Shown in pieces: positions 22,874 through 36,660 of a DNA stretch of 37,477 bases (position 1 is the first letter of the stretch; every line of letters starts with the position of its first letter). The stretch comes from Ignavibacteria bacterium (GTDB lineage Bacteria > Bacteroidota > Ignavibacteria > Ignavibacteriales > Melioribacteraceae), in contig VGVY01000011.1 in the NCBI GenBank assembly GCA_016873835.1, positions 1 through 37,477 of the forward strand. The letters are read 5' to 3'. Position numbers and translations under genes: made by a program. The notes below the pieces were generated by a model. It did no database searches and was not told the origin of the DNA. It saw only the letters and a program-made list of their open reading frames with translations.

Positions 22874-25800
22874 ATGATCAATAATCGTTATAAAATAATT
22901 AAGAAAATTGGCGAGGGACGGAGTAAAGTTTTTCTTTGCAGTGATGAGTTAATAGGTACAAAAATTGCCATTAAGGTACTTCCTTTTGAAATCGATGCAG
23001 CTGAAAAACAAACATTTCGACAAGAATTTTTCTACTTGAAGAAATTCAATCATCCGAATATTATTAAAGTTTTAGACTATGGTAATATTATCACAATTTC
23101 TGATGAATTAAGAAACAATCATGGCATTAGTTTATTCTCACAATTTATTTCGTTAGAGTATTTTGAAGCCGAAACAATTGCAGATTCTTTTGACCAATTA
23201 AATAAGGATATTATACCACGACTAATCTATTCAGTAGCATCAGTTCTATTTCATTTACACCAAGCAAATTTTATTTACTACGATCTTAAACCAGAAAACA
23301 TTCTAATAAAATTTGTTAATAATGATGTTCAAATAAAATTCATCGATTTTGGATTTACTCGACATTTATTATTAAATAATACCAAAAACATAATGGGTAG
23401 CTTAAAATTTATTGCTCCAGAAGTTCTAAATAGGGAAGCAAGAAATCATAAAGCAGATCTCTATTCTCTGGGAGTATTAATTTATAGATTAATCTATAAT
23501 AAATACCCAATAGAATTCGATGAACCACTGATGATTTATAAAGCTCAGGTCGAGGGTAAAATAAATTTTCCCAGGACTTCAATTTTCCCAAATTTAATTG
23601 AAATAATGAAACAACTATTAGATAAAAATGTTGGTAATAGACCAACTTCCAGTTTTGAAGTTATAAGAGAATTAAAAATATCGTCTTCAGAAGAATTCAA
23701 ATCTGGCTGGAACTCGCCAAAAGTCCATGCTGGAAGGAAAACTGAGCTTGAACAATGCAAAGCATATTTAACAAATGATGATAACCAGAAACCAATTAAA
23801 ATAGTGGGTCCGTATAATTCGGGTAAATCTTTTTTACTTCAAGAATTACATAGTAATTATGATGAGAGTATTTTATTAACTCGAAAATCTTTTAATAAGA
23901 ACCTTCCCGTTTCTAATCAAATACTAAGTCAATTTTTCTTCAATTTAGATGTGTCTGCAAGTTTACGAGATGAGCTGAAACTAAGGTTAAACGAGTTAAT
24001 AGATAATAAAAGCGACCTTCCAATTGATGAGCTCCGTTCTATCTTGGTAAGTATATTGAAGAAGATTAAAATTATTTTATTAATTGATGACATCAATAGA
24101 TTTGATCCAGTTGAAAAAGAGATAATTTCAAATATTCTCCCTTTAATTATAGTCAACAATGGTAAAGTTATTTGGACTGCTGATAATGAAAACGCAGATA
24201 ATGTTATTAAACTATTTAATGTAGAAGAAATTGAATTAAAACCCTATTCCATTACAGAAGTAAATGAGTTCCTCGACTTTAATTATGCGCATTTCCTTCC
24301 CAAAGATAAAATCTTTCAGTTGGTTCAAAAATACTCCGAACTTCAACCCGGCAGTATTGAAAAATTTATTAATAATTTAGTTTTTAATAAGATAATATCC
24401 TTTGACACTGAAAAAGGAATAGATATTAGAGATGATTCTAGTGTCCATCAAATTTTGCAAAGATCACTTGAAGAAATTTATTCTACTCAATATAGAGAAT
24501 TAACTGATGCTCAAAAATTACTACTTAACTATTTTTCTTTATTTCAAAACAATTATAGTAAAAGTCACTTATGTGAATTACTTAATATAAATATCGGTGC
24601 GCTTGATGAGATTTTGGATGTATTAGAAAAAAACAATGTTGGTAAGTATAATCATTTCAACAATGGATTTGAGTTCTATTCACCGGGATTGAAATCATTT
24701 ATTATTTCTGATATGGATAATCCCGAAAGTTATCATAAAAATATAGTTGATTGGCTTGTAAATGCTTATGAACAAAAATATAACAATGACTTAGCCTACC
24801 ATTGTGAAAAGGCCGGTATATATCAGAAAGCCTTTGAGCATTATCAATTAGAAATTGAAAAGGCGAGAAAAGCTTCAGCCAATCATCATTTGATAAATCT
24901 TATCAATCATGTTATAAACTTACCATTAGAAATAGATCAGATTAACAAATTGAAAATTGACTTAACTGAAATCTATTTTTTAATTGGTGATATGAATGCA
25001 TGTTATTCTTTAATCGAAGAGCTGCTTAGTGACTCTTTAAATGAAGATCAAGTAAAATCATTAATGATATTAAAGGGCAACACACAAATAAAATTAGGGG
25101 ACATTCAAAAAGGGATTGATACACTTCATTTCTCGCTAAATATGATTACTCAGCCGCATATTAAAGAGGAAATTAATGTTTCGATAGCTAGTGCTTCCCT
25201 TTATTTAAATAGATTTGATGATACAATTAATATTTGTTATGAAATTATTAAAAAAGATTTAGCAAGCAATACAGTTATTGGAAAAGCTTACAATCTGCTT
25301 GGATTAGTTGAGCTATATAAATCTCAAAATCTCACTGAAACAATTAAAAATTTTTCAAAATCAGCTGACTACTATTTAAAAGATAAAGATAATTCAAAAC
25401 TAGCTGGAGCTAACCTAAATATTGGGAATATTTATGTTATGATGCATGATTATGAAAATGCAAAAAAATATTGGGATGAGGCATTTGATATTAATAATAA
25501 AATCGGAAGCCTAGATCAAGAAGGTTTACTATTGCTCAATTATGGAATTTTGGACTATGATCTAATTGACTTCGAATCAGCTTTAAAAAGGTATGAGAGA
25601 GCAAAACTTATTTTTGAAAATTTGGGTGAGAAAAATAGCGCTGGTTTAGCTTATCACAATTTGGCTGAGTGTCATTTAAAGCTTTGTAATTTTAATGCAG
25701 CATTAGAAAATATTGATAATGCTCAATTCATTTTTGAAGAAATAAAAAGCTATAGAGAACTTGGTGAAGCTTTATTTCTAAAAGGGAATATCTATTTTAA

Positions 25801-26437
25801 ATTGAATGATCACGAGGAACTTGATCAAATCATTAAAAGCCTGGAACAATTAGTTGGTAAAAAACGGCTTCCGGAAAAATTTGTATTACGAATCAATCAG
25901 CTTGAAGCACAATATCAAATTCTTTTGAATAAAAGTAACGATGCTATTAATTTGTTAAATGAGCTGTTAAATAAACTATCTGAATCCAATGAAAGAGAAG
26001 ATAATTATAATTTTGCGGCCTCATTATTCAACTTGATTAGTATATATATAAATCTAAATATGCTGAAAAATGCTGAAGAAGTTTTACAGAATAAAAAGTT
26101 AGACAAAATTGCAATACACAATAACTTAATCAGCATTGAAAGAGAGTTTTGGCTTGCAAAATTTAAATTTATTAGCAAATCAGATGATCCATTTTGTATC
26201 ATTGAAAATATTTTGAAGAAAATTGAAGAGATTAGTATAACTGAACTGACATGGAAGGTTTTATTTCTTGCTGGAAATTATTTTGAAGAGAGGGGAAATA
26301 AAATTAAATCTGAGAAGTATTATTCTTTGACCAAAGCAGTACTTTTAAATATAGAAAAATCGATTCCCACCAAAGATATTCTTCGAAAATTTCACCAAAT
26401 GCCAGAAATTGTTGAAGTCAGAAAACTTTGTTTTTAG
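22874..26437 (+). CDS. Ser/Thr protein kinase with AAA/STAND-type ATPase and TPR domains
   Basis: A 1187-residue multidomain signalling protein without signal peptide or membrane segment, so probably cytosolic. Residues 6-265 are a Hanks-type kinase: glycine loop G13-E-G, Lys34 in IAIKVLP, catalytic D137 in YYDLKPENIL, D158 in the DFG motif and an intact APE. The usual HRD is YYD, so it is a non-RD kinase. Residues about 285-560 form a P-loop ATPase, with Walker A G312-PYNSGKS-319 and Walker B ILLIDDINRFD (Asp405, Asp406). From about 630 to 1180 the chain is TPR-like helical repeats, for instance AGLAYHNLAECHLKL and GEALFLKGNIYFKL. The layout recalls PknK and the N-terminal half of Hstk-type dual kinases. 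No Shine-Dalgarno precedes the ATG. Confidence 0.9.
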   Translation: MINNRYKIIKKIGEGRSKVFLCSDELIGTKIAIKVLPFEIDAAEKQTFRQEFFYLKKFNHPNIIKVLDYGNIITISDELRNNHGISLFSQFISLEYFEAETIADSFDQLNKDIIPRLIYSVASVLFHLHQANFIYYDLKPENILIKFVNNDVQIKFIDFGFTRHLLLNNTKNIMGSLKFIAPEVLNREARNHKADLYSLGVLIYRLIYNKYPIEFDEPLMIYKAQVEGKINFPRTSIFPNLIEIMKQLLDKNVGNRPTSSFEVIRELKISSSEEFKSGWNSPKVHAGRKTELEQCKAYLTNDDNQKPIKIVGPYNSGKSFLLQELHSNYDESILLTRKSFNKNLPVSNQILSQFFFNLDVSASLRDELKLRLNELIDNKSDLPIDELRSILVSILKKIKIILLIDDINRFDPVEKEIISNILPLIIVNNGKVIWTADNENADNVIKLFNVEEIELKPYSITEVNEFLDFNYAHFLPKDKIFQLVQKYSELQPGSIEKFINNLVFNKIISFDTEKGIDIRDDSSVHQILQRSLEEIYSTQYRELTDAQKLLLNYFSLFQNNYSKSHLCELLNINIGALDEILDVLEKNNVGKYNHFNNGFEFYSPGLKSFIISDMDNPESYHKNIVDWLVNAYEQKYNNDLAYHCEKAGIYQKAFEHYQLEIEKARKASANHHLINLINHVINLPLEIDQINKLKIDLTEIYFLIGDMNACYSLIEELLSDSLNEDQVKSLMILKGNTQIKLGDIQKGIDTLHFSLNMITQPHIKEEINVSIASASLYLNRFDDTINICYEIIKKDLASNTVIGKAYNLLGLVELYKSQNLTETIKNFSKSADYYLKDKDNSKLAGANLNIGNIYVMMHDYENAKKYWDEAFDINNKIGSLDQEGLLLLNYGILDYDLIDFESALKRYERAKLIFENLGEKNSAGLAYHNLAECHLKLCNFNAALENIDNAQFIFEEIKSYRELGEALFLKGNIYFKLNDHEELDQIIKSLEQLVGKKRLPEKFVLRINQLEAQYQILLNKSNDAINLLNELLNKLSESNEREDNYNFAASLFNLISIYINLNMLKNAEEVLQNKKLDKIAIHNNLISIEREFWLAKFKFISKSDDPFCIIENILKKIEEISITELTWKVLFLAGNYFEERGNKIKSEKYYSLTKAVLLNIEKSIPTKDILRKFHQMPEIVEVRKLCF

Positions 26438-26884
26438 AAAATTTTCAAGCTTTTTGTCATTAAGACGATTTTCTAAGACAACTTTAATTACTTTTTCAAG
26501 TGACATTTTTCTTAACCGCAGAAAACCTTTGAAAATCGAACTATTCACAAGCTTTTTACAGACTCTTTCGAATTGACACATTATTCATCAAATTATTATT
26601 CTGAGACATTTTTTGAGATTTTGAAGTTAAACAGTTGGCTACTCTAATTTGTTAATAAGACTGCAGATGGTTTTTAAAAATATTTTTCTCCTTAAATCAT
26701 TAGACCATAAAAAAATACTCATAAAACGCAAAATTCGGAGAAAATAATTTTCTATAAATAAGGCTTATAACTCTTTTTTAGTCAAAGGACTAATTAGCCT
26801 TTTTTGAAATTCGGACATGAAAATAGTTTTGGCACGGAAAGTGGCTTATTCTACCATCAACAAAAATCCTTAAAGGAGGTTAAA
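26438..26884. other. 447-base non-coding gap with promoter and 5' leader
   Basis: This is the only long gene-free stretch in the window. It has no convincing reading frame on either strand. An inverted repeat pairs CGATTTTC (26466-26473) with GAAAATCG (26531-26538) across 57 bases, a weak structure. A TTGACA at 26573-26578 has a possible TATTAT 15 bases later, a poorly spaced sigma-70 candidate. The best signal is the TTTG/TAGTTTTG pair listed separately at 26803-26831. The end of the gap carries the strong ribosome-binding site of the first lipoprotein gene. I see no tRNA, riboswitch or clear terminator hairpin. Confidence 0.6.
26803..26831 (+). promoter_or_regulatory. Candidate Bacteroidota-type promoter
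   Basis: TTTG at 26803-26806 is separated by 17 bases from TAGTTTTG at 26824-26831, matching the TTTG / TAnnTTTG consensus of Bacteroidota primary sigma factors. Transcription would start near 26838, leaving a leader of about 47 bases that ends in AAGGAGGT (26873-26880), five bases before the lipoprotein ATG. In that leader TCCTT and AAGGA lie back to back, so part of the ribosome-binding site could pair locally. Five genes downstream on the same strand could be served by it. Confidence 0.5.
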
Positions 26885-27466
26885 ATGAAAAAATACTTTT
26901 TACTCCCGTTGTTTGTCGGATTTTTGGCTTTAAGCTGCACTGACAACAATATCGTAGAGCCAGTCTCTACAGATGCTACCAGCCAATCGGTCAGCGAATT
27001 AAAGTGGTTGGACTTACCACAATTTGCAAGTAATAGACTGATGAAGGTTGTATCAGCCAGCAAATTAATTACTGGTTCTGTTGGTGGGAAAATTGACGTT
27101 GAATGCAAAATTGAGAACAGCAAAGCTTATCCATTTCTCATGAAAGCTTCATTAGACGTTCCGCCAAATGCTTTTGATGGTAGTCAAACATTACTTTTCA
27201 CTGTAATACTAGACGACCAAACAATGACTGCAACTTTTTCTCCTTCACCAATGACCTTCAAAGTTCCACTTTCTCTTGATCTGGAATATAGTGGAATTGA
27301 TTTGAGCACGATTGATCAATCAAGATTAAACTTCGCTTATTTAGCTGGTGATGGAAGTATTCAAGTTGCATCGTATCAGAAACTTGATGTTAATACAAGT
27401 ATTCTGAGAATCCGTGTAAAAAGTGCAAAGATTGAACATTTTTCAAGATTTGGATTTGTACAATAA
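26885..27466 (+). CDS. Lipoprotein, first of a tandem paralogous pair
   Basis: The start is the ATG at 26885, set by a near-perfect Shine-Dalgarno (GGAGG at 26875-26879); the open frame extends upstream but without a signal. The 193-residue product begins with a lipoprotein signal ending L-A-L-S-C18 and continues TDNNIVEPVSTDATS. The body has a beta-rich pattern (GGKIDV, LDVPPNAF, FSPSPMTFKVPLSLDLEY) reminiscent of ZU5-like domains; that resemblance is an inference. It ends EHFSRFGFVQ, shared with the next gene. It is probably exposed to the periplasm or cell surface, with no enzyme motif. The strong ribosome-binding site, rare in this window, suggests high expression. Confidence 0.82.
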   Translation: MKKYFLLPLFVGFLALSCTDNNIVEPVSTDATSQSVSELKWLDLPQFASNRLMKVVSASKLITGSVGGKIDVECKIENSKAYPFLMKASLDVPPNAFDGSQTLLFTVILDDQTMTATFSPSPMTFKVPLSLDLEYSGIDLSTIDQSRLNFAYLAGDGSIQVASYQKLDVNTSILRIRVKSAKIEHFSRFGFVQ

Positions 27467-27493
27467 TTATATACTAATATAAGGGCATTAAAA

Positions 27494-28144
27494 ATGAAAA
27501 AGTTAATATTGGTAATCTCGTTAATCGGTTTTACTTTTTTTGGCTGTTCCGACAGCAACATCGTAGAACCAAATTCTACAGATAATACATCAATACAAGC
27601 AAATACAGTTAATTTTATTGAATTGCCGCAAATATCTGAATTGCGATTGATGAAAGAAGTTTCAACAAGCAAATTGATAACATCAAAGGATGGCGGAAAT
27701 CTTAAAATCGATTATAAAATTGATAAGGCTCCTTTTGGTGATTTTCAAATGAAAAGTGAATTGAAAGTTCCTAAAAATGCATTCAGTGAAAATGAATTAC
27801 TATTCAATATGATTCTTGATGATCAGACTACATCAGTTTCATTTTTCCCAAGTCCTAAGAAGTTTTCAGTTCCATTGGAATTAGATTTAGAATACAAGGG
27901 TTTTGACGCATCTAAAATTAATATCCAAACTTTATCATTCATTTATTTGGGTTCCGATGGATCTGTTGAAAAAATCCAGTTCGATGAAATAGAATTTGTC
28001 AAAGGCGATTTGACAGTAAAAATAAATAAGAATGGTATTATGGAAATCAAGGGAATTGACAATTATGATACAAAAATGGAAAGTAAGCTTAAAATTAAGA
28101 ATGCTAGAATTAATCATTTTTCAAGATTCGGATTTGTTCAATAG
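27494..28144 (+). CDS. Lipoprotein, second of a tandem paralogous pair
   Basis: This 216-residue product is clearly a paralogue of its upstream neighbour. It has a signal with Cys18 in F-F-G-C, then SDSNIVEPNSTDNTS, LRLMKEVSTSKLIT, MILDDQTTSVSFFPSPKKF and PLELDLEYKG. Its ending, INHFSRFGFVQ, is almost identical. It carries about 20 to 25 extra residues before the C-terminus (around 180-205), containing KINKNGIMEIKGIDNYD. Function is unknown; probable location is a membrane surface outside the cytoplasm. The gap to the upstream gene is 27 bases, so both are probably in one transcript. Confidence 0.82.
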   Translation: MKKLILVISLIGFTFFGCSDSNIVEPNSTDNTSIQANTVNFIELPQISELRLMKEVSTSKLITSKDGGNLKIDYKIDKAPFGDFQMKSELKVPKNAFSENELLFNMILDDQTTSVSFFPSPKKFSVPLELDLEYKGFDASKINIQTLSFIYLGSDGSVEKIQFDEIEFVKGDLTVKINKNGIMEIKGIDNYDTKMESKLKIKNARINHFSRFGFVQ

Positions 28145-28173
28145 TTAAATAATTTTTTTTAATGGAGTATGAA

Positions 28174-28374
28174 ATGAAAACAACAAGTAAAAATAGTGGT
28201 AAGCAGAGATTGACAGTAATCAATTCAAAGTTAGAGACCTATTCTAACAGCGAAAAGAATGCATCACCTTTTTCTTCTAATGAAAAAATAGATGCAGTTT
28301 ATTTTGTAATGATGTTAGATAAGAAAAACTCCATTAATAAATATGCTTGCGGATTAGTTCCGCAAAATAGTTAA
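28174..28374 (+). CDS. Small 66-residue protein of unknown function
   Basis: I chose the ATG at 28174 because GGAG (28164-28167) lies six bases upstream; an ATG at 28162 would add four residues but has no such site. The product is basic and Ser/Asn-rich at the N-terminus (MKTTSKNSGKQRL). A short hydrophobic stretch, VYFVMML, sits near residue 44, and the end is INKYACGLVPQNS, with the only Cys near the C-terminus. There is no signal peptide or membrane helix. It sits between the lipoprotein pair and a TPR protein in the same direction. A peptide ligand, small regulator or precursor peptide are all possible; no family is recognised. Confidence 0.55.
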   Translation: MKTTSKNSGKQRLTVINSKLETYSNSEKNASPFSSNEKIDAVYFVMMLDKKNSINKYACGLVPQNS

Positions 28375-28387
28375 GAGTATTAAAATG

Positions 28388-28402
28388 GTTTATTTAATAA
28401 AC
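28388..28402. repeat. 15-base inverted repeat upstream of the TPR gene
   Basis: GTTTATT (28388-28394), one T, then AATAAAC (28396-28402) form a perfect inverted repeat 34 bases before the TPR gene start. It is AT-only apart from the ends and lacks a T-run, so it is not a typical terminator. It could be an operator. It could also arise by chance in such AT-rich DNA. Confidence 0.3.
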
Positions 28403-28436
28403 TATACAACAACGAGTAAACAGAAAGGTACAAGTC

Positions 28437-29690
28437 ATGAAAAGTAATAAAGAAATAATTGCCGGAGACTTGAAGGGTTTGCTCTCTAAATATTTGACGC
28501 AAGAACAAATCAACGAATACATGCGAACTATGGCAATGGATTTTCTGCCGTTGCAGCCGTTGCGCCTTACTTCCACTGAAGATCAGTTGAATAAATTTTT
28601 TAATGAAAATATTCAGACTAATAAGGTTAGGATTCTATCAGATACATTAATTACATTTATAGAAAAGAATTTATCCTTTGAACATTTTATGAAATTTCTA
28701 CTCGAGTTCAGCAAAATGAATCTTGTTCAAGGTGAATTTAATCTATCATTTGAATTAGCAAATTATGTTTATAATTCAGTGGAGACAAAAACTGATTTCG
28801 AAGTATTCAAAGCTCATGCGTTAGTATTAATCGCTGAGTATTATCTACGTCAAGCATTACAGAAAGATGCTTTCAATTCTCTTAAAAGTGCCAGAGCTAT
28901 CTACGAAGCTCTTGATAACAAAAATGGACTTGGCAAATGTGAATTTCTTTTAGGAGCAATGTATATAGAAAAGGGGGACCTAAAAGCTGGAAAAATTAGA
29001 CTCGAAAATTGCCTCAGTTATATTGACCAATCCAAAGAGATTATGACTCTAGCTCAAGTTGAAACTAATTTAGGTATAATTAATTATATAGAAGGAAATC
29101 TTGAAGTAGCCCTGGAGTTTTATAATTCTGCTCAAGCAAGATTTTATCAAATGAATGATCATCGCAGAAAAGCTGAAGTTATGCTGAACAAAGCTATGAT
29201 TTTTAGAAAGCTTGGAAAGCGAGATGAAGCTCTAGAGTTATTTAACGAAGCAAGTGCAGTTGCTAGATGTTTTGGCTATGCTCCAATACTGAATTTATGC
29301 TTCTTAAATAAAGCTGAGCTCTTTTTAGAAATGAATGAGCTCGATAGGGCTGCCAACTATACACAAAAGGCAATCGAAATGAGTTATCTGCTTAATGATA
29401 AGTTATCCATTGCAGAAGTTCACAAGCTTTATGGTATAATTGCCAAGAAACAGAAAAAATATACTGTTGCTGAAAACTATTTGTTAACAAGCCTTAGACT
29501 AAATCATGAATTAAATCAAGAGTTAAATGCAGCAGAAACAGAACATGAATTAGGAATTCTGTACAAAGAACGCGGTGCAAAATCTGAAGCATTAACTTTT
29601 TTGACTAAGGCGCTAAGTTACTATAATAAAAATAATTCAAAGGCAATCGCTTCTGAAATTCAAGAAGAGGTTGTAAATTTGAATAACTAA
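28437..29690 (+). CDS. TPR-repeat protein
   Basis: A 417-residue soluble protein. The first 110 residues are helical and unassigned. From about residue 115 onward the chain is consecutive TPR-like helix pairs: GKCEFLLGAMYIEKGDL, AQVETNLGIINYIEGNLEVAL, AEVMLNKAMIFRKLGKRDEAL, AEVHKLYGIIAKKQKKYTVA and AETEHELGILYKERGAKSEAL. Such arrays bind proteins or peptides. The repeats resemble in style those at the end of the 1187-residue kinase nearby. The histidine kinase gene begins 19 bases downstream, so the two products probably work together. There is no signal peptide or membrane helix. The ATG at 28437 has only a modest GAAAGG upstream. Confidence 0.85.
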   Translation: MKSNKEIIAGDLKGLLSKYLTQEQINEYMRTMAMDFLPLQPLRLTSTEDQLNKFFNENIQTNKVRILSDTLITFIEKNLSFEHFMKFLLEFSKMNLVQGEFNLSFELANYVYNSVETKTDFEVFKAHALVLIAEYYLRQALQKDAFNSLKSARAIYEALDNKNGLGKCEFLLGAMYIEKGDLKAGKIRLENCLSYIDQSKEIMTLAQVETNLGIINYIEGNLEVALEFYNSAQARFYQMNDHRRKAEVMLNKAMIFRKLGKRDEALELFNEASAVARCFGYAPILNLCFLNKAELFLEMNELDRAANYTQKAIEMSYLLNDKLSIAEVHKLYGIIAKKQKKYTVAENYLLTSLRLNHELNQELNAAETEHELGILYKERGAKSEALTFLTKALSYYNKNNSKAIASEIQEEVVNLNN

Positions 29691-29709
29691 AAGTTAGGGG
29701 ATGACAATA

Positions 29710-31017
29710 ATGAAATTGGCCGAATTCATTAGTGATCTGAATAAAACTGAAAACAAAAGTAATACTTCTGATTCCAATATCAAGTTAATATTGGAAATAT
29801 TGAGAAAGATAAATAGTTCTCTGGTTTTAGCTGATGTATTAGATCTAGTTTTGAAAAATGCTATCAGCATTACTAAATCTGACAGAGGTTTTATTGTTTT
29901 ACAAGATGATAAAGGAAATCTAGAATTTGTTTTATGTCTTGATTCGGAAGGTCAGCCCCTTTCTGAGGAAATTTTTAATATCTCTACAACTGTTGTAAAT
30001 GAAGTTTTCCAATCCGGTCAATCGAGATTTATTGAATCTGCTCAAGACGATACAAAGAATAAAAGTCAAAGCATAATCAACCTGGAATTACAAACTATCA
30101 TTTGTGCTCCATTAATTACAAAAGGGGAAAAAATTGGGGTTGTTTATGTTGATAGTAAAACTCTTAATAAATTGGAAGGCAAAGAAGTAATTGAACTCTT
30201 TGAAATCTTTGCCAGCCAAGCTGGTATCGCAATCCATAATGCTTTAATGCATCAGAGACAAGTAAGAGCAAACTTCGAGTTAAACCGCGCGAATAATGAA
30301 TTGGAAATGGCAAAACAACAAGCAGAAAAATTCGAAATGCTTAAAAATCATTTCCTTTTACAAATGTCCCATGAAATTAGAACTCCATTCAATATTATTC
30401 TTGGCGGTATTCATTTGCTTAGATCCGGAAGTTTGCATTTAGAATCGTCAGAGGTTAAAGATATTTTTGATATGATTGATAGTGGGGGGAATAGGATCAT
30501 TAGAACTGTTGATGAAATAATGGAAATGGCAAAAATTAAATCTGGTAATTATGAAGTGAGGCATGAAGCTATACATTTAGAAAAGGATATTTTAGAAGAA
30601 GTTATTAAGACTTACAAAGGTTTGTCGCAAAAAAAAGGCATTGATTTACTTTTCGAAAAAACTACTGAAAAAAATGAAATAATTTGCGATAAGTTTACAA
30701 CGTACCAAATAATTCAAGAAATTATAGATAATGCAGTAAAATTTACAAAGAAGGGATTTGTGAAAGTTAAAAAGTATGCTACTGATGATGGGAATCTTGC
30801 TGTAGAAGTTTCTGATACTGGAGTAGGAATTTCTGCTGACTACATGGAACATATTTTTGAACCGTTTTCTCAAGAAGATACTGGTTACTCAAGGAAATTT
30901 GAAGGGAATGGATTAGCATTAGCTCTAGTGAAAAAATATGCAGAGATGAATAATATTTTTATTGATATAAGCAGTAAAAAAAATGCTGGAACAACTGTAA
31001 GATTAATTTTTAAGTAA
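29710..31017 (+). CDS. Cytosolic GAF-domain sensor histidine kinase
   Basis: I use the ATG at 29710 (435 residues); AGGGG at 29696-29700 is well placed for it and too close to the ATG at 29701. Residues about 30-175 are a GAF domain (SDRGFIVLQDD, ICAPLITKGEKIGVVYVDS), followed by a coiled-coil linker. The HisKA domain has phosphoacceptor H221 in QMSHEIRTPFN. The ATPase domain has N341 in IIDNAVKF, DTGVGIS, FEPFSQ and a GNGLALALVKKY G2 box. No membrane helix is present, so it senses an internal ligand or a protein partner. No response regulator is encoded in the window. It ends 6 bases from the convergent ABC ATPase gene. Confidence 0.92.
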   Translation: MKLAEFISDLNKTENKSNTSDSNIKLILEILRKINSSLVLADVLDLVLKNAISITKSDRGFIVLQDDKGNLEFVLCLDSEGQPLSEEIFNISTTVVNEVFQSGQSRFIESAQDDTKNKSQSIINLELQTIICAPLITKGEKIGVVYVDSKTLNKLEGKEVIELFEIFASQAGIAIHNALMHQRQVRANFELNRANNELEMAKQQAEKFEMLKNHFLLQMSHEIRTPFNIILGGIHLLRSGSLHLESSEVKDIFDMIDSGGNRIIRTVDEIMEMAKIKSGNYEVRHEAIHLEKDILEEVIKTYKGLSQKKGIDLLFEKTTEKNEIICDKFTTYQIIQEIIDNAVKFTKKGFVKVKKYATDDGNLAVEVSDTGVGISADYMEHIFEPFSQEDTGYSRKFEGNGLALALVKKYAEMNNIFIDISSKKNAGTTVRLIFK

Positions 31018-31023
31018 ACGTTT

Positions 31024-31905
31024 TTAGTAAGGATGGTTGCAATGTATTGTTGAACTGTCATTTTGAATAATTGCAACTTCTGAAATACATTTTTCACTTT
31101 TTTTATCACATCGTTCATAGTATTCACATGCTGTAGGCTGCTGAGAAATGTTTTTTTTGAAATCCTCACGCTTAATTTTATAATTCCCGCTTTCTAACAG
31201 AAATTGTGAATAAGGATGCTTCAGAGACGTGCTGAAATTATTTGTTATCGAAGTTTCAATAATTTTTCCTTTGTACATTACCATAATTCTATTAACAAAA
31301 TCATTTAATAGATCTAATTCATGAGTTATACAGATAATAGTGATATTTTGCTTCCTATTTATATTTCTAAGCAGCTCTATGAAATTAATCTTTGACTTAT
31401 AGTCCTGGGCAGAAAAAGGTTCATCTAAAATTAAAATCTCAGGTTTAACAACCAGTAAACGGGCAAGAGCAATTCGTTGTCTTTCGCCGCCGCTTAATTG
31501 ATAGCCCCAGCTATTTAAAAGTTTTTTATCTGCATTGACCTCAGATAAAACTTCAGTTAATGATTCATGGTCATTTGAAGCATCGTTTAAAATACTTCTG
31601 CATTTTCGAAATGGATTAATTAATTCTTCTGAGTTCTGAAATAATATTTGAATTGGACTGATTTTATTAGTTAATAAGTGCTTCTTAATTTCACCAGAAG
31701 TATTTAAGGTAACACCAGAAATTATTTTTGCTAAAGTAGTTTTACCGCAGCCTGATTCACCTACAATCCCTAATATTTCTCCTTGATATAGTTCAAATGA
31801 TACATTTTTAATGATATCAATAGTTGTGTTTTTTTTGAGCAGAGAAAATGAGCTCTCAGCACTATAAGAAATATTTCTGGCTTCAATTAAAGTATTCACA
31901 TTCAT
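31024..31905 (-). CDS. Oligopeptide-type ABC transporter ATPase (OppF/DppF-like)
   Basis: One of two ATPases for the peptide importer encoded divergently. Motifs are complete: Walker A GESGCGKTT (49-57), Q-loop in IQILFQNS, signature LSGGERQR, Walker B ILILDEPFSAQD and H-loop CITHELD. The C-terminus carries the Opp/Dpp-type extension with Cys in ACEYYERCDKKSEKC and a final HCNHPY; in some family members this holds an iron-sulfur cluster. At 293 residues it is slightly short for the family. It overlaps the upstream ATPase gene by 4 bases and runs toward the histidine kinase gene. Substrate is probably short peptides but cannot be read from sequence. Confidence 0.88.
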   Translation of the reverse strand: MNVNTLIEARNISYSAESSFSLLKKNTTIDIIKNVSFELYQGEILGIVGESGCGKTTLAKIISGVTLNTSGEIKKHLLTNKISPIQILFQNSEELINPFRKCRSILNDASNDHESLTEVLSEVNADKKLLNSWGYQLSGGERQRIALARLLVVKPEILILDEPFSAQDYKSKINFIELLRNINRKQNITIICITHELDLLNDFVNRIMVMYKGKIIETSITNNFSTSLKHPYSQFLLESGNYKIKREDFKKNISQQPTACEYYERCDKKSEKCISEVAIIQNDSSTIHCNHPY

Positions 31906-32672
31906 TCAGACAATAATAAAGCATTTAATAAAGTAGTTTTTATTTCAGTAGTATTATCTCGATTTGTACTAAACTCTGTTATGCCATGTTGGGTTAAAAG
32001 ACCAATTTTGTCCGTTGTATTCAAAGCAAAGTTAATATCCTGAGTAACAATGAGAACAGAAGATTGATTTGCTCTAGAAAAATCGATCAATTTTTTACTA
32101 AGTAAATTGGAAATTGGAATATCAACTGCAGAATTAGGCTCATCAAGTATAAGAAGTTTTGGTTTAGAAATAATACCTAAAATAATGGCTAATCTTTGCG
32201 CCATTCCGCCGCTTAATTGAAATGGATAATAATTAAGCACTGTTTCCTTTTTGGGTAAAATAAAATAATCCAGAAGCTCGTCAAGTTGGGCACTATTAGT
32301 GTAATCTTTAAAGTAGTAATTGATTTTTTTAAGAGGATCGAAAGAGCTTAACGCATCTTGGAAAATATATTTTACAATCTTATGACGAAGTAAAATCAAG
32401 TTAGCAGAATCACATGAAAATGGATTAATGCCATCAATTAAAATATTTCCTTTTACTCTATAAATTTTTTCGTCTAATAAATTCAATAATGCGTTTAGTA
32501 ATGTTGTCTTCCCAATTCCATTTTTACCTACCAAACAATAGATTGAATTCGAATTGACTTCAAAATTGATGTGCTCAAAAAGTAAACTGTAATTTGATTC
32601 TCTTTTTAATTCCAGAGAATTTAGCTTTACCTCTAATATATTATTGTGTTTGTTTGTCACTTTATTATGCAA
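31902..32672 (-). CDS. Oligopeptide-type ABC transporter ATPase (OppD/DppD-like) with altered H-loop
   Basis: The second ATPase, 256 residues, begins 87 bases from the divergent binding-protein gene. Walker A is GKNGIGKTT (49-57), the Q-loop is YIFQDALSSFDP, the signature is LSGGMAQR, and Walker B is LLILDEPNSAVD. The H-loop, normally THD, reads T-Q211-D: the codon is CAG, not CAT or CAC. It also lacks the Cys-rich C-terminal extension seen in the partner ATPase. The pair may therefore work asymmetrically, with one ATP site weakened; that is inference. Signature and Walker motifs are otherwise intact, so it is not a decayed gene. Confidence 0.85.
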   Translation of the reverse strand: MHNKVTNKHNNILEVKLNSLELKRESNYSLLFEHINFEVNSNSIYCLVGKNGIGKTTLLNALLNLLDEKIYRVKGNILIDGINPFSCDSANLILLRHKIVKYIFQDALSSFDPLKKINYYFKDYTNSAQLDELLDYFILPKKETVLNYYPFQLSGGMAQRLAIILGIISKPKLLILDEPNSAVDIPISNLLSKKLIDFSRANQSSVLIVTQDINFALNTTDKIGLLTQHGITEFSTNRDNTTEIKTTLLNALLLSE

Positions 32673-32690
32673 CTTAACAAATCATTTTAG

Positions 32691-32708
32691 TATCTTAAAT
32701 ATAAGATA
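32691..32708. repeat. 18-base palindrome in the divergent transporter promoter region
   Basis: TATCTTA (32691-32697), AATA, TAAGATA (32702-32708) form a perfect inverted repeat in the 87-base gap between the divergent ATPase and binding-protein genes. Its place suits an operator controlling both halves of the transporter. The AT richness means chance cannot be excluded, and part of it could also serve as a -10 element. Confidence 0.4.
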
Positions 32709-32759
32709 AAAAATGAGCATTACTTAAAAGCAAATATTGTATCATATATTTGAGGAAAC

Positions 32760-34418
32760 ATGATTACAAGAATCAAAGCTTTTTCGACTTTAATTTTATT
32801 ATCTTTTCTTTTGCTAACATGCACAAAGACTCACCAAAAATCAACCGACCGAGTTGTTGTAGGATTGCAAAACGATTTAGAAACCCTTAATCCACTGTAT
32901 TCAATGAGTGAACCTGAGCTAAACATTTCAGAACTAATTTATTTATCATTAGCCGGGCATGATTGGGATGCAGAGTTAGGAACAGTAACTTCTTATCCTT
33001 TATTAGCTGAAGAATGGAAATGGAACTCAGATTCTACAAGTGTTTCAATAAAATTGCGAGATGATGTTTACTGGAGTGATGGGAAAAAAGTGAGCTCGGA
33101 TGATGTTGTTTATTCATTCGATTTATATTCCGATGCAAATGTTCAAAGCCGTTTCTTTGGTATTTTTTCAAACTACTTTACGAAACCTGATTTGAGCATT
33201 GATTTAAAAAAATCTTTTGAAAAAATAAATGACTTAGAATTGAAGATTAAATTCAAACCTCAAAGCGTGCCTAGTGTTTTTGATTTTGACATGCCGATTT
33301 TACCAAAACATATTTTTGAAAAAAATGATCGAAGGGAATTAGCAACTTCCGAGATAAATGTAAAACCAATTGGCTGCGGTCCTTATCAGTTAGATAATTG
33401 GACGAGGAATCAAAACATACGATTAGTTAAGAATGAAAATTCATTTTTGATTAAAGAAAACAGCGTTAAAGAAATCTACTTTAAAATTGTCCCAGATTAC
33501 AATTCACTATTAAATCAAATAATGAAAGGGGAAATTGATTTAGCTCAAAACATTCGACCAGAAGATGTTGCTTCGCTAAAATCTCAAGTGCATTTACAAA
33601 TTTCATCTAGAAAAGGGAGATCATATGATTATGTTGGGTTAAATAACATTGATCCGAATGAATTTCAAAAATCTGGTAAACTATCGCCAAACCAATATTT
33701 TGGTAATGCAAAAATTAGAATGGCTGTCAGTCTTGCTATTAATCGTAAATCTATTTTAGATGAATTTTTATTAGGTAATGGTGAATTAATGGTAACTCCC
33801 ATTTCACCAATTTTTAAAAGTGAAATAGATAAATCATTGAATCCAATAGAATACAATTTGACCAAGTCGCGAGAAATTTTAAGGAATGAAGGTTGGACTG
33901 ATACAAATGGTGATGGTATTATAGAAAAGAACGGAAAGAAATTTGCATTAACGTTAAACGTACCGAGCGGAAATCCCTTAAGAACTTATTCTTCAACAAT
34001 TGTGCAGAATAATTTGAAAGCCGTTGGAATTGATCTACAAATTGCAACCTTAGAACCTTCAATCTTCTTTAACAAAATGTTTAAAAAAGAATTTGATATT
34101 TGGATTGCTGGCTGGGGAGTTCCAATTCCATTGGATTTGAAACCATATTGGCATTCAAATCCTTCTATTGGCGGTGCAAATATTGTGAGCTATACAAATA
34201 AAAATTTGGACAAAATTCTTGAACAATTATCTAGAAAAGTAAGCAACAATACTCGTACTGAATTACTAAAACAGTTTCAAAAAATCATTGCAGATGAGCA
34301 GCCCGTATCATTTCTTTATTGGATAGATACAATTGTTGCATCAAATAAAAAAATACAAAATTTGCAAATTAATCCTCTTGGTTCAGTTCAGCAGTGTTGG
34401 AATTGGGTTATAGAATAA
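32760..34418 (+). CDS. Peptide-type ABC transporter substrate-binding lipoprotein
   Basis: A 552-residue extracytoplasmic solute-binding protein of family 5 (OppA/DppA type). The N-terminus is a lipoprotein signal ending L-L-L-T-C21. Family hallmarks include QNDLETLNPLYS, a VSIKLRDDVYWSDGKKVSSDDVVYSF stretch near residue 97 and a final segment with DEQPVSFLYW. It also has the SPIFKSEIDKSL and AREILxxEGW-like region around residues 345-380. The start ATG is preceded by GAGG (32752-32755). It leads the plus-strand transporter half; the permease begins 2 bases after the stop. The ligand is probably peptides, though this family also binds nickel or sugars. Confidence 0.92.
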   Translation: MITRIKAFSTLILLSFLLLTCTKTHQKSTDRVVVGLQNDLETLNPLYSMSEPELNISELIYLSLAGHDWDAELGTVTSYPLLAEEWKWNSDSTSVSIKLRDDVYWSDGKKVSSDDVVYSFDLYSDANVQSRFFGIFSNYFTKPDLSIDLKKSFEKINDLELKIKFKPQSVPSVFDFDMPILPKHIFEKNDRRELATSEINVKPIGCGPYQLDNWTRNQNIRLVKNENSFLIKENSVKEIYFKIVPDYNSLLNQIMKGEIDLAQNIRPEDVASLKSQVHLQISSRKGRSYDYVGLNNIDPNEFQKSGKLSPNQYFGNAKIRMAVSLAINRKSILDEFLLGNGELMVTPISPIFKSEIDKSLNPIEYNLTKSREILRNEGWTDTNGDGIIEKNGKKFALTLNVPSGNPLRTYSSTIVQNNLKAVGIDLQIATLEPSIFFNKMFKKEFDIWIAGWGVPIPLDLKPYWHSNPSIGGANIVSYTNKNLDKILEQLSRKVSNNTRTELLKQFQKIIADEQPVSFLYWIDTIVASNKKIQNLQINPLGSVQQCWNWVIE

Positions 34419-34420
34419 AA

Positions 34421-35401
34421 ATGAATAATTCTTGGTTCAAGTTTAGCAAAAGGCTACTTTCATATGTTGTAACTCTTTTTCTATTAATTAGTATAATTTT
34501 TATCCTTTTAAGGATTTCACCAGGAGATCCAGTCCAAAAATTTATCTCTCCAGATTTACATCCATCAGTTGCAGAAAAAATGATGCATGAGTTTGCATTG
34601 GACCAACCTTTATTTGTTCAATATGGAAATTTTATTAAAAATTTATTGTCAGGAGAACTCGGGTTTTCGTATAACTTTCGGCAGCCGGTTAGCTCAGTAA
34701 TTGGAACTGCATTGCCGTTTACACTTTTGTTTTCACTAACAAGTCTAATATTTCAGTTAGCAATTTCAATTAGTCTAGTGACTTATGTTTCAAAGAGAAA
34801 AGGTAATTTTTTGGATAAATGTCTGGAAAAACTTTCTCTTGGAATTTACTCTGTTCCGACCATGTTAATTGGATTAATGCTTCTTTACATATTTTCAATG
34901 AAGTTGGAGTTGTTTCCATCTTCTGATTTGTATTCGCTCGACTATCCTTATTTTAGTTTTTTTGAAAAAATGATTGATATTATTTGGCACATGACTTTAC
35001 CTTTAATAACTCTTTCATTACCGGGAACTCTTATTTTTTATCATTACTTAAAAAGTAATGTAGATATTTCATATCGTAAAAATTTTATTCTCTTTTTAAT
35101 TGCTAACGGAAAAAGTGAAAAGGAAATATTTTCTAAACATGTACTGCCTAATTCACTAAGCACCCTTATTTCAGTTGTTGGTGTGGAACTTGGAATTCTA
35201 TTAGGAGGTGCTTTAATAACTGAAACAATTTTTGGGCTGCCTGGAATGGGAAGACTTACAGTTAATGCAATTTTATTGAGGGATTATCCATTAGTAATGG
35301 GAGCTGTTTTAATTTCGGGAATTTTTGTTTTGCTATCAAATTTTATTGCAGACATAATTAAGATTAATTTAAATAAAAGACTTAAAGCTGAAATTTTATA
35401 A
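34421..35401 (+). CDS. Peptide-type ABC transporter permease (OppB/DppB-like)
   Basis: The 326-residue permease has an N-terminal membrane helix, then RISPGDPVQKF and LDQPLFVQYGNFIKNLLSGELGFSY, the usual DppB front part. Five more membrane segments follow. The EAA loop, which docks the ATPase, is around NGKSEKEIFSKHVLPNSLSTL, followed by ITETIFGLPGMGRL. I start at ATG 34421, two bases after the binding-protein stop; the frame opens earlier inside the upstream gene. It should form the channel with the next gene's product. Confidence 0.92.
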   Translation: MNNSWFKFSKRLLSYVVTLFLLISIIFILLRISPGDPVQKFISPDLHPSVAEKMMHEFALDQPLFVQYGNFIKNLLSGELGFSYNFRQPVSSVIGTALPFTLLFSLTSLIFQLAISISLVTYVSKRKGNFLDKCLEKLSLGIYSVPTMLIGLMLLYIFSMKLELFPSSDLYSLDYPYFSFFEKMIDIIWHMTLPLITLSLPGTLIFYHYLKSNVDISYRKNFILFLIANGKSEKEIFSKHVLPNSLSTLISVVGVELGILLGGALITETIFGLPGMGRLTVNAILLRDYPLVMGAVLISGIFVLLSNFIADIIKINLNKRLKAEIL

Positions 35402-35403
35402 TT

Positions 35404-36660
35404 ATGATTAGAAAGTTTTACATATGGCATTATGTTGTTTTTATTACTAGTGCAATATTCATTTTACGTTTTCAAGAAGTACTCAATTCATTTACTTTAC
35501 TTTATTATTCTATAGTCTGTTTTTTTACAGTAGAAAATTTTTTCATAAACTACTATTCTTTTTCTCAATTAGATCAAATCCTCTCACCGATTATTCTTTT
35601 TGCAATTTTAGTTTTAGTTATATTAAAACGAAATCGGTGGAAATTTTTGTCCAGTAGAATCTGCTTTTCAAATGCCATGTTGATTGTATTAATATTTACT
35701 TTTTTACTTACTCCATTGATTGCTCCATATAATCCGAATCTTCAATTCAATCTTTCGGTTTCTAAATTACTCTCGCCATTTTCATCAAAGAAAATTGGAT
35801 TAATTGTTGATTACAGCGATGATAATTATACTCCGACGAAAATTGAAAAATATATTCACTTTAAAAGTATATTTGAAAGAGAAGTTGTTGATGAAAATTA
35901 CTTTCTTGCAGATAGTATTATTACTAGTAACGATATTAATATTTACCAAAGAAACACGGAAATAACCTTACCTAATGGGAGTAATTTAAAAACTCAAAAT
36001 GCTCTTTTCATTTTTGGTACTGATGAGTTTGGCAGAGATATTTTTTCGAGGCTAATTTATGCAACAAGACTTTCACTATTTATTGGGGCACTGGCCGTAG
36101 GAATAACATTCATTTTAGGATTAATCTTAGGATTTATTTCAGGTTATTTTTCAAAATTAATAGACGGGGTTCTAAATAGATTTACAGAAATGCTTGTCAG
36201 TGTGCCTACAATCTTTTTAGTAATTCTGTTTTTAGCAATGTTTGGCAATTCATTAATGGTAGTAATTATTCTACTCGGTTCAGCCGGCTGGATGAGTTTA
36301 TTCAAAATTGTAAGAGGTGAAGTAATTTCAATAAAAAATAAAAACTTCATTACTTCTTCTAAATTAATTGGGATGAGCAATTGGAAAATACTGATTAATG
36401 ATTTTCTACCACTACTACTTCCTTCAATAATTGTGAATTTAGTTTTTCAATTTGCAAATGTAATTATTGCAGAATCTGCATTAAGCTTTCTTGGATTGAC
36501 TGGCAATCATTTATACCCGACTTGGGGTGCAATGATTCATCAAGGACAATTTTATTTGGAACAAGCCTGGTGGATTGTCTTATTACCTTCAATATTTCTA
36601 ATTTCTACATTAATTGTAATTTATGATTTTGGTAGAAAGTTTGAGCTAAAGGAGATTTAG
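35404..36660 (+). CDS. Peptide-type ABC transporter permease (OppC/DppC-like), extended form
   Basis: The core matches DppC: membrane helix ending TPLIAPYNPN (about 103-112), FGTDEFGRDIFSRLIYATRLS from residue 204, and an EAA loop, SSKLIGMSNWKILINDFLPLLLP. FLGLTGNHLYPTWGAMI closes it. The protein is 418 residues, against roughly 280-300 for the family. Two additions explain this. About 80 N-terminal residues carry three extra hydrophobic segments. About 70 extra residues lie in the loop between PYNPN and FGTDE (about 112-203), which should face the periplasm. The ATG is 2 bases after the previous stop. The role of the additions is unknown. Confidence 0.88.
   Translation: MIRKFYIWHYVVFITSAIFILRFQEVLNSFTLLYYSIVCFFTVENFFINYYSFSQLDQILSPIILFAILVLVILKRNRWKFLSSRICFSNAMLIVLIFTFLLTPLIAPYNPNLQFNLSVSKLLSPFSSKKIGLIVDYSDDNYTPTKIEKYIHFKSIFEREVVDENYFLADSIITSNDINIYQRNTEITLPNGSNLKTQNALFIFGTDEFGRDIFSRLIYATRLSLFIGALAVGITFILGLILGFISGYFSKLIDGVLNRFTEMLVSVPTIFLVILFLAMFGNSLMVVIILLGSAGWMSLFKIVRGEVISIKNKNFITSSKLIGMSNWKILINDFLPLLLPSIIVNLVFQFANVIIAESALSFLGLTGNHLYPTWGAMIHQGQFYLEQAWWIVLLPSIFLISTLIVIYDFGRKFELKEI

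Follow-up and report, generated by a model that had tools for sequence, protein, structure and literature searches.

Why should a Ser/Thr protein kinase (STPK), a tetratricopeptide repeat (TPR) protein and a histidine kinase be encoded together with two lipoproteins between them? The question is raised by a 37,477-nucleotide contig (C11; hereafter the window, i.e., the whole stretch of DNA that was analyzed) from an Ignavibacteria genome of 2.75 Mb in 187 contigs. The original prediction took the locus for a split HstK-like dual kinase, into which the lipoproteins had been inserted as a possible input or output. In order to examine this, the locus was compared with 28 regions from relatives and 15 named contigs, and homologues were searched across 57 relatives; those named by a GTDB scan belong to the Ignavibacteriaceae, the Melioribacteraceae and other Ignavibacteriales assemblies. 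The answer that we favor, and consider probable with some reserve, is that the locus encodes a signaling system: a heptapeptide is self-released and re-imported, and TPR proteins sense it and relay the signal to the Ser/Thr and histidine kinases and to a sigma54 regulator. No paper on this locus was found in the open-access literature, a scope that leaves most subscription journals outside.

The evidence that carries this reading lies at the C-terminus of the lipoproteins. These form one family, in which the lipobox cysteine, one proline and the C-terminal residues H185, F186, S187 and R188 are most conserved, the latter within a motif H-F-S-R-[YFW], and both lipoproteins of the window end in SRFGFVQ despite an overall identity of 47%. 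HFS is present in 112 of the 116 lipoproteins with a locatable motif (one has HFC, with the nucleophile kept), its histidine is conserved in 24 of 25, and the stretch from the serine to the C-terminus is seven residues long in 83 of 116. At the lipoprotein position, many relatives encode a secreted protein of about 120–330 aa that consists of 3–17 near-identical tandem 16-residue repeats, e.g., SGSQLDELGSKYGWVR. Within a genome, lipoprotein and repeat share the same heptapeptide (e.g., SRYAFAK, SRYAFAQ, SRYGWAT, or SRFGFIK), and even within one genus the variants AFAK, AFAQ, AFAH, and IFAK agree between the two proteins. For the 29 genomes with both proteins, the own-genome match score was 168, compared to 119.5 ± 4.7 for free permutation, 123.8 ± 4.7 for permutation within family and 153.8 ± 3.2 within genus (p = 2e-5 in each case), and all seven residues were identical in 14 of these 29 pairs vs. 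1.8% of mismatched pairs. The heptamers of both proteins were located by fixed search patterns, which may miss unusual variants and which were applied in the permutation controls as well. Five heptapeptides were predicted in writing beforehand, with exact agreement in two genomes (G054, G127), six of seven residues in two others (G093, G094) and four of seven in the last (G121). The shared segment starts sharply, as lipoprotein and repeat are 0–3% identical over the five residues before the serine and 60–97% over the seven residues from the serine on. Two variants were observed alongside: in genus g48 (L084, L085, L295, L296) the repeat units have diverged to S(S/V/E)(Y/W)GYSK and the match with the lipoprotein is lost, while the last unit in L084 is still SRYGWAK; and the lipoprotein of L280 (G060) ends in IIPHFCRYGFVN, with cysteine in place of serine at the predicted cleavage nucleophile.

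The fold of the lipoprotein suggests how such a peptide could be set free. The structure model (predicted local distance difference test, pLDDT, 85.2) has a beta-sandwich fold, with a break in the strand at S187, and its nearest solved structures are the ZU5 domains of ankyrin (best Z 11.0), ZO-1, and UNC5b, followed by GAIN domains and the FIIND of NLRP1. Among proteins of this kind, PIDD is autoproteolytic at an HF/S site that follows its ZU5 domains, and NLRP1 and CARD8 at SF/S just before the last strand (PMC3210808), the cut in rat NLRP1 falling between F968 and S969 (PMC8081665). The lipoprotein model has both a ZU5-like beta-sandwich and an (H/S)F/S motif directly before the last strand; the ends of the alignment range (NLRP1 975, model 193) would place S187 at S969 on the assumption of an ungapped last strand. 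Cleavage at HF/S would free the C-terminal peptide, SRFGFVQ in the window. The boundary of covariation thus coincides with the predicted self-cleavage bond, each having been located independently of the other. The lipoproteins are regarded as the likely signal source of the module.

The repeat proteins come with a different candidate for processing. A protein with an HExxH motif and a secretion signal-like start is encoded in 14 of 14 relatives with a repeat protein vs. 1 of 43 others (p = 2e-12); the motif reads HE(L/I)VH in nearly all copies and is joined by HQE...E in many. In L086 (8317–11280) and its orthologues, it is a secreted protein of about 970–1,220 aa with HELVH and often HQE...E, for which Pfam gave no match in L086 or L079, and a weak propeller repeat only in L087. 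Lipoprotein-only genomes, that of the window included, mostly lack the HExxH protein, as would follow from self-cleavage of the lipoprotein but not of the repeat protein. Two paralogous lipoproteins of L275 (G036), ending in ETPGGARYGFTR and ETSGGARYGFTR, have no HFS and keep the heptapeptide of the G036 repeat protein (ARYGFTR); self-cleavage would be impossible for them, and their processing might require the peptidase.

The genes involved recur in a fixed order. In most relatives, an oligopeptide-binding protein and two permeases are followed by the STPK, a sigma54 activator, a lipoprotein and/or repeat protein, in some cases the HExxH peptidase, the TPR protein and the GAF-histidine kinase, and the same order is shown by the class-level relatives L315 and L317. 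The STPK start overlaps the upstream permease gene by about 4 nt in relatives, and in those with a full-length STPK the usual GAF-histidine kinase orthologue (42–51% identity) lies a few genes away. Separate STPK-AAA-TPR, TPR, and GAF-histidine kinase genes thus recur in one conserved locus across the Ignavibacteriales, as the original prediction had proposed to check, and their split is ancient and no local accident. The locus is nevertheless patchy, since none of the three same-genus genomes (G001–G003, 66–87% complete) has a full-length STPK and the lipoprotein is absent from G001 and G002. An adjacent TPR gene was found in about 35 of 40 regions chosen for a lipoprotein, three of the remainder being on short contigs that end there, and many such pairs occur with no STPK in view; the lipoprotein-TPR pair is the most widespread part of the system. 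The lipoproteins were rejected as chance insertions, given that they recur at the same place across an order, and the idea that they were inserted into a kinase locus has to be given up.

The transporter of the window lies downstream of the kinases, unlike its upstream position in relatives; among the genes of the loci read, those most closely related to it are the transporter genes. Judged by these relatives, the oligopeptide ATP-binding cassette (ABC) transporter at 31024–36660 belongs to the locus, and the span originally proposed (22874–31017), which holds the right genes, was drawn too narrowly. The TPR protein (417 aa; TPR_12, 8.7e-22 in Pfam) has a well-predicted model (pLDDT 88.6) that aligns with Rap-peptide complexes along some 330 residues (Z about 30), and with NprR and AimR at Z of 25–27 and 24–25, respectively. 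By sequence (Pfam, NCBIfam) no match to the Rap, NprR, PlcR, or AimR families was obtained. The model fits a peptide receptor without proving one.

All modules of the original prediction, i.e., STPK-P-loop-TPR, TPR, GAF-HisKA-HATPase, and two lipoproteins, were found where it had put them. In Pfam, the STPK protein matches Pkinase (1.6e-38), an AAA_16-like P-loop (2.1e-6, below the gathering score) and TPRs, and the histidine kinase matches GAF_2 (1.2e-14), HisKA (2.8e-12) and HATPase_c (6.4e-25). Full-length STPK homologues were detected in about 20 of the 57 relatives (25–34% identity), with the catalytic positions K34, D137, K139, N142, and D158 conserved across 22 homologues; matches at E < 1e-100 came only from Ignavibacteriales-group assemblies, after which the next match drops to 1e-38. 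A simple hydropathy scan found no transmembrane-like stretch in the STPK, the TPR protein or the histidine kinase. The sigma54 activator encoded beside the STPK in relatives ("X") carries Sigma54_activat (5.6e-62) and HTH_8, and its N-terminal region has no receiver match in Pfam. Fused proteins were sought as well, and they exist: single-chain STPK-TPR-GAF-HisKA-HATPase proteins in Cloacimonetes (L157 by Pfam; same pattern in L159 and L173) and STPK-AAA-TPR-GAF-sigma54 activator proteins (L154 and L163 by Pfam; same pattern in L130, L143, L164, and L180), all aligning to both ends of the split set; L157, L154, and L163 are about 1,760–1,820 aa long. This lends support to the original prediction in that the separate proteins would act jointly, and the absence of any form aligning to both halves, which would have spoken against the original prediction, was not what we observed. 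What stands of it is that the locus is a split relative of fused STPK-GAF-histidine kinases; what does not is the status of the lipoproteins, which are core parts of the locus. The parts that give the locus its likely meaning (repeat proteins, sigma54 activator, transporter link, and shared peptide) lay outside its view. Beside these, one STPK-ATPase/TPR-GAF chassis was seen with varied outputs, namely histidine kinase (L157, L159, L173), sigma54 activator (L154, L163) and GGDEF (L124, by Pfam). One family has a GAF-histidine kinase with no HisKA match followed by a separate PAS-HisKA-HATPase-receiver protein (L087 15034–17858; also L082, L089, and L109), as if the kinase role had moved to the latter.

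Sigma54-type -24/-12 sites were found ahead of the first lipoprotein or repeat gene, in most cases at a distance of no more than 100 nt. A sigma54-like score ≥ 13 was reached by 41% of these first genes vs. 3.6% of 799 other genes in the same loci, the p value of 2.5e-29 being only indicative because some loci enter the count twice and the scoring weights were taken from the known consensus. The window has such an element before its first lipoprotein gene, and RpoN is encoded in its genome (G000), as would be expected of a sigma54 operon.

From the computed gene order, fold predictions, promoter enrichment, and genome-specific heptapeptide with its sharp start at the serine, we infer the following course of events. 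The two ZU5-like surface lipoproteins would cut themselves between Phe and Ser of the C-terminal H-F-S, freeing SRFGFVQ in the window, while in many relatives a secreted tandem-repeat protein would supply the same heptapeptide, probably excised by the secreted HExxH protein. The oligopeptide ABC transporter encoded at the locus would then carry the heptapeptide back into the cytoplasm, where the Rap-like TPR protein, and possibly the TPR region of the STPK too, would bind it. This may alter the activity of both the STPK and the GAF-histidine kinase and, in relatives, of the sigma54 activator beside the STPK, and these in turn may control the sigma54 promoters of the lipoprotein or repeat genes, closing a positive feedback loop. 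Far more confidence attaches to the conservation of the locus and to the sharing of the heptapeptide than to the single steps of this mechanism.

Several observations weigh against such a course. A few lipoproteins have GGA, KFA, or PYS instead of HFS, about a quarter have longer tails, and the heptapeptides of lipoprotein and repeat differ in genomes G052, G103, G112, and G060. The catalytic His942 of rat NLRP1 lies elsewhere in its ZU5 domain, and no equivalent was located in the lipoprotein model, for which only the ends of the alignment range were compared; moreover, the cut last strand could stay bound like the halves of CARD8, so that release of the peptide is not assured. TPR superhelices are common, and a subunit of APC/C (Z 31), APPBP2 (30) and MalT (29) score like Rap, for which reason fold rank alone was rejected as a pointer to Rap. 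Linkage of the transporter is no proof that it carries the heptapeptide, and the window promoter has a weak -12 part. For the genome of the window, the feedback arm is not established, as a search there recovered no repeat protein, no peptidase and no close orthologue of the sigma54 activator.

The same data can be read in other ways. The shared heptapeptide could be a C-terminal sorting, anchoring, or processing tag for a common envelope machinery, with the TPR protein, kinases and transporter regulating or recycling envelope proteins. Like a sorting tag, the motif is found at the C-terminus or close to it; the lipoproteins are exported proteins, the peptidase that accompanies the repeats has a secretion signal-like start together with HExxH, and a shared recognizer alone would suffice for the covariation. 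We nevertheless consider a tag unlikely, as it fails to account for 3–17 internal copies in one protein, for the exact start at the HF/S bond, for the coupling to an oligopeptide importer, and for the pairing of the lipoprotein with a TPR protein of cytoplasmic receptor-like fold. These last pairings, where they occur without a kinase, are equally unexplained if the locus is a split HstK-like dual kinase in which the TPR protein mediates cross-regulation between STPK and histidine kinase, no peptide signal exists, and the lipoproteins serve as accessory sensors or outputs in the envelope. The existence of fused STPK-TPR-GAF-HisKA proteins, the cohesion of the three genes and the intact Ser/Thr kinase and histidine kinase motifs in the window all agree with this, yet the overlap with the transporter, the repeat proteins and their covariation with the lipoproteins are left aside, which makes it quite improbable.

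It seems very improbable that transporter and kinases respond to peptides in general, as part of a nutrient or stress response, and that the ZU5 lipoproteins and the repeat proteins have a structural role at the surface, with a beta-strand motif in common. Oligopeptide transporters do serve nutrition too, and the motif forms the last strand of the well-predicted lipoprotein fold; a structural strand, however, would not need to covary within a genus between two otherwise unrelated proteins, and the repeat protein has no ZU5 fold around the motif.

The features of the window are collected in Table 1. The 70-aa open reading frame (ORF) has no homologue among the small ORFs of related loci and may be no gene; a possible ribosome-binding site precedes an inner ATG at 28174. 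Having neither homologues nor the motif, it was rejected as a peptide precursor.

Table 1 Features of the locus in the window, with the basis of each assignment
Feature	Position	Strand	Basis
Ser/Thr kinase - AAA_16-like P-loop - TPR protein, 1187 aa, predicted cytoplasmic	22874..26437	+	Pfam, homologues, conserved catalytic positions
Sigma54-like -24/-12 element TTGGCACGGAAAGTGGC, 39 nt before LP1	26829..26845	+	-24 part good, -12 part weak; enrichment in relatives; RpoN in genome
Lipoprotein LP1, 193 aa, predicted ZU5-like fold, C-terminal HFSRFGFVQ	26885..27466	+	Family alignment, model, fold comparison
Codons of predicted LP1 heptapeptide SRFGFVQ, after HF/S bond	27443..27463	+	HFS position in LP1; boundary and covariation
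Lipoprotein LP2, 216 aa, 47% identical to LP1, C-terminal HFSRFGFVQ	27494..28144	+	Family alignment
Codons of predicted LP2 heptapeptide SRFGFVQ	28121..28141	+	HFS position; boundary
70-aa ORF	28162-28374		Without homologue
TPR protein, 417 aa, predicted peptide receptor (Rap/NprR/AimR-like superhelix)	28437..29690	+	Pfam, family alignment, model, fold comparison
GAF-HisKA-HATPase histidine kinase, 438 aa, predicted cytoplasmic	29701..31017	+	Pfam; orthologues near STPK in relatives
ABC transporter ATPase, oligopeptide type	31024..31905	-	Pfam; related to ATPases of relatives' loci
Second ABC transporter ATPase	31902..32672	-	Relatedness to relatives' loci
Oligopeptide-binding protein (SBP_bac_5)	32760..34418	+	Pfam
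Oligopeptide permease 1; relatives upstream of STPK in other genomes	34394..35401	+	Comparison of loci
Oligopeptide permease 2; relatives overlap STPK start by ~4 nt in other genomes	35404..36660	+	Comparison of loci

If confirmed, the self-released heptapeptide would represent peptide communication of a kind so far known from Gram-positive bacteria. Import-and-sense communication, described until now in Firmicutes and their phages, would be extended to a Gram-negative lineage known largely from metagenomes, a self-cleaving domain familiar mainly from cell-death and inflammasome proteins of animals would gain a bacterial role, and signal, source, likely receptor and promoter would all be named in one locus. 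As the heptapeptide can be read from the genome, each step is testable with a synthetic peptide. The full combination, in which a Gram-negative lineage turns ZU5 HF/S self-cleavage of surface lipoproteins into a heptapeptide pheromone, which some species would also obtain from a tandem-repeat precursor and which would be sensed inside the cell by Rap-like TPR proteins that act on Ser/Thr kinases, histidine kinases and sigma54, is put forward tentatively, its chances being a little short of even.

How does the locus compare with known systems? With the HstK-type dual kinases of cyanobacteria (Alr2258 and relatives, cbSTKIII; PMC2176072) it shares Ser/Thr kinase, GAF, and HisKA modules in the same order, as well as the central ATPase/TPR region in the fused relatives examined, and STPK, ATPase region, GAF, and HisKA are all present and homologous (Pfam; the fused proteins match both ends). 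It differs in that the window, like every Ignavibacteriales locus examined, distributes these modules over at least three proteins instead of one polypeptide, and HstK has no counterpart of the lipoproteins, repeat precursor, transporter, or sigma54 activator. The AAA_16-like and TPR regions of the STPK and the neighboring sigma54 activator in relatives recall the MalT/STAND regulators and the NtrC-type activators, from which the locus is set apart by a kinase domain as output and by an activator with no Pfam receiver match at its N-terminus. The RRNPP systems of Firmicutes (Rap, NprR, PlcR, AimR; PMC10075063, PMC9765709), which combine peptide quorum sensing by a propeptide with an adjacent TPR receptor of 250–500 aa (PMC10075063), are alike in the size of the TPR protein, which lies within this range beside the gene of an exported peptide source, in a fold predicted to be close to Rap, NprR, and AimR, in the linked oligopeptide transporter and in a predicted peptide of seven residues; beyond this gene linkage, RRNPP-style re-import by Opp and binding in the TPR groove are predicted. 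Unlike RRNPP, the precursor is a lipoprotein of about 190 aa (193 and 216 aa in the window) or a tandem-repeat protein instead of an adjacent propeptide of 10–100 aa, the TPR protein of the window falls outside the Rap/NprR/PlcR/AimR sequence families, and the system belongs to Ignavibacteriales, with predicted self-cleavage and an output via Ser/Thr and histidine kinases and sigma54. Finally, the autoproteolytic ZU5 proteins PIDD, NLRP1, and CARD8 share with the lipoproteins the predicted ZU5-like fold and an HF/S or SF/S site just before the last strand (PMC3210808, PMC8081665). The protein of this locus is, in contrast, an exported bacterial lipoprotein with nothing after the last strand, and cleavage would therefore yield a free peptide and no UPA-death-fold fragment.

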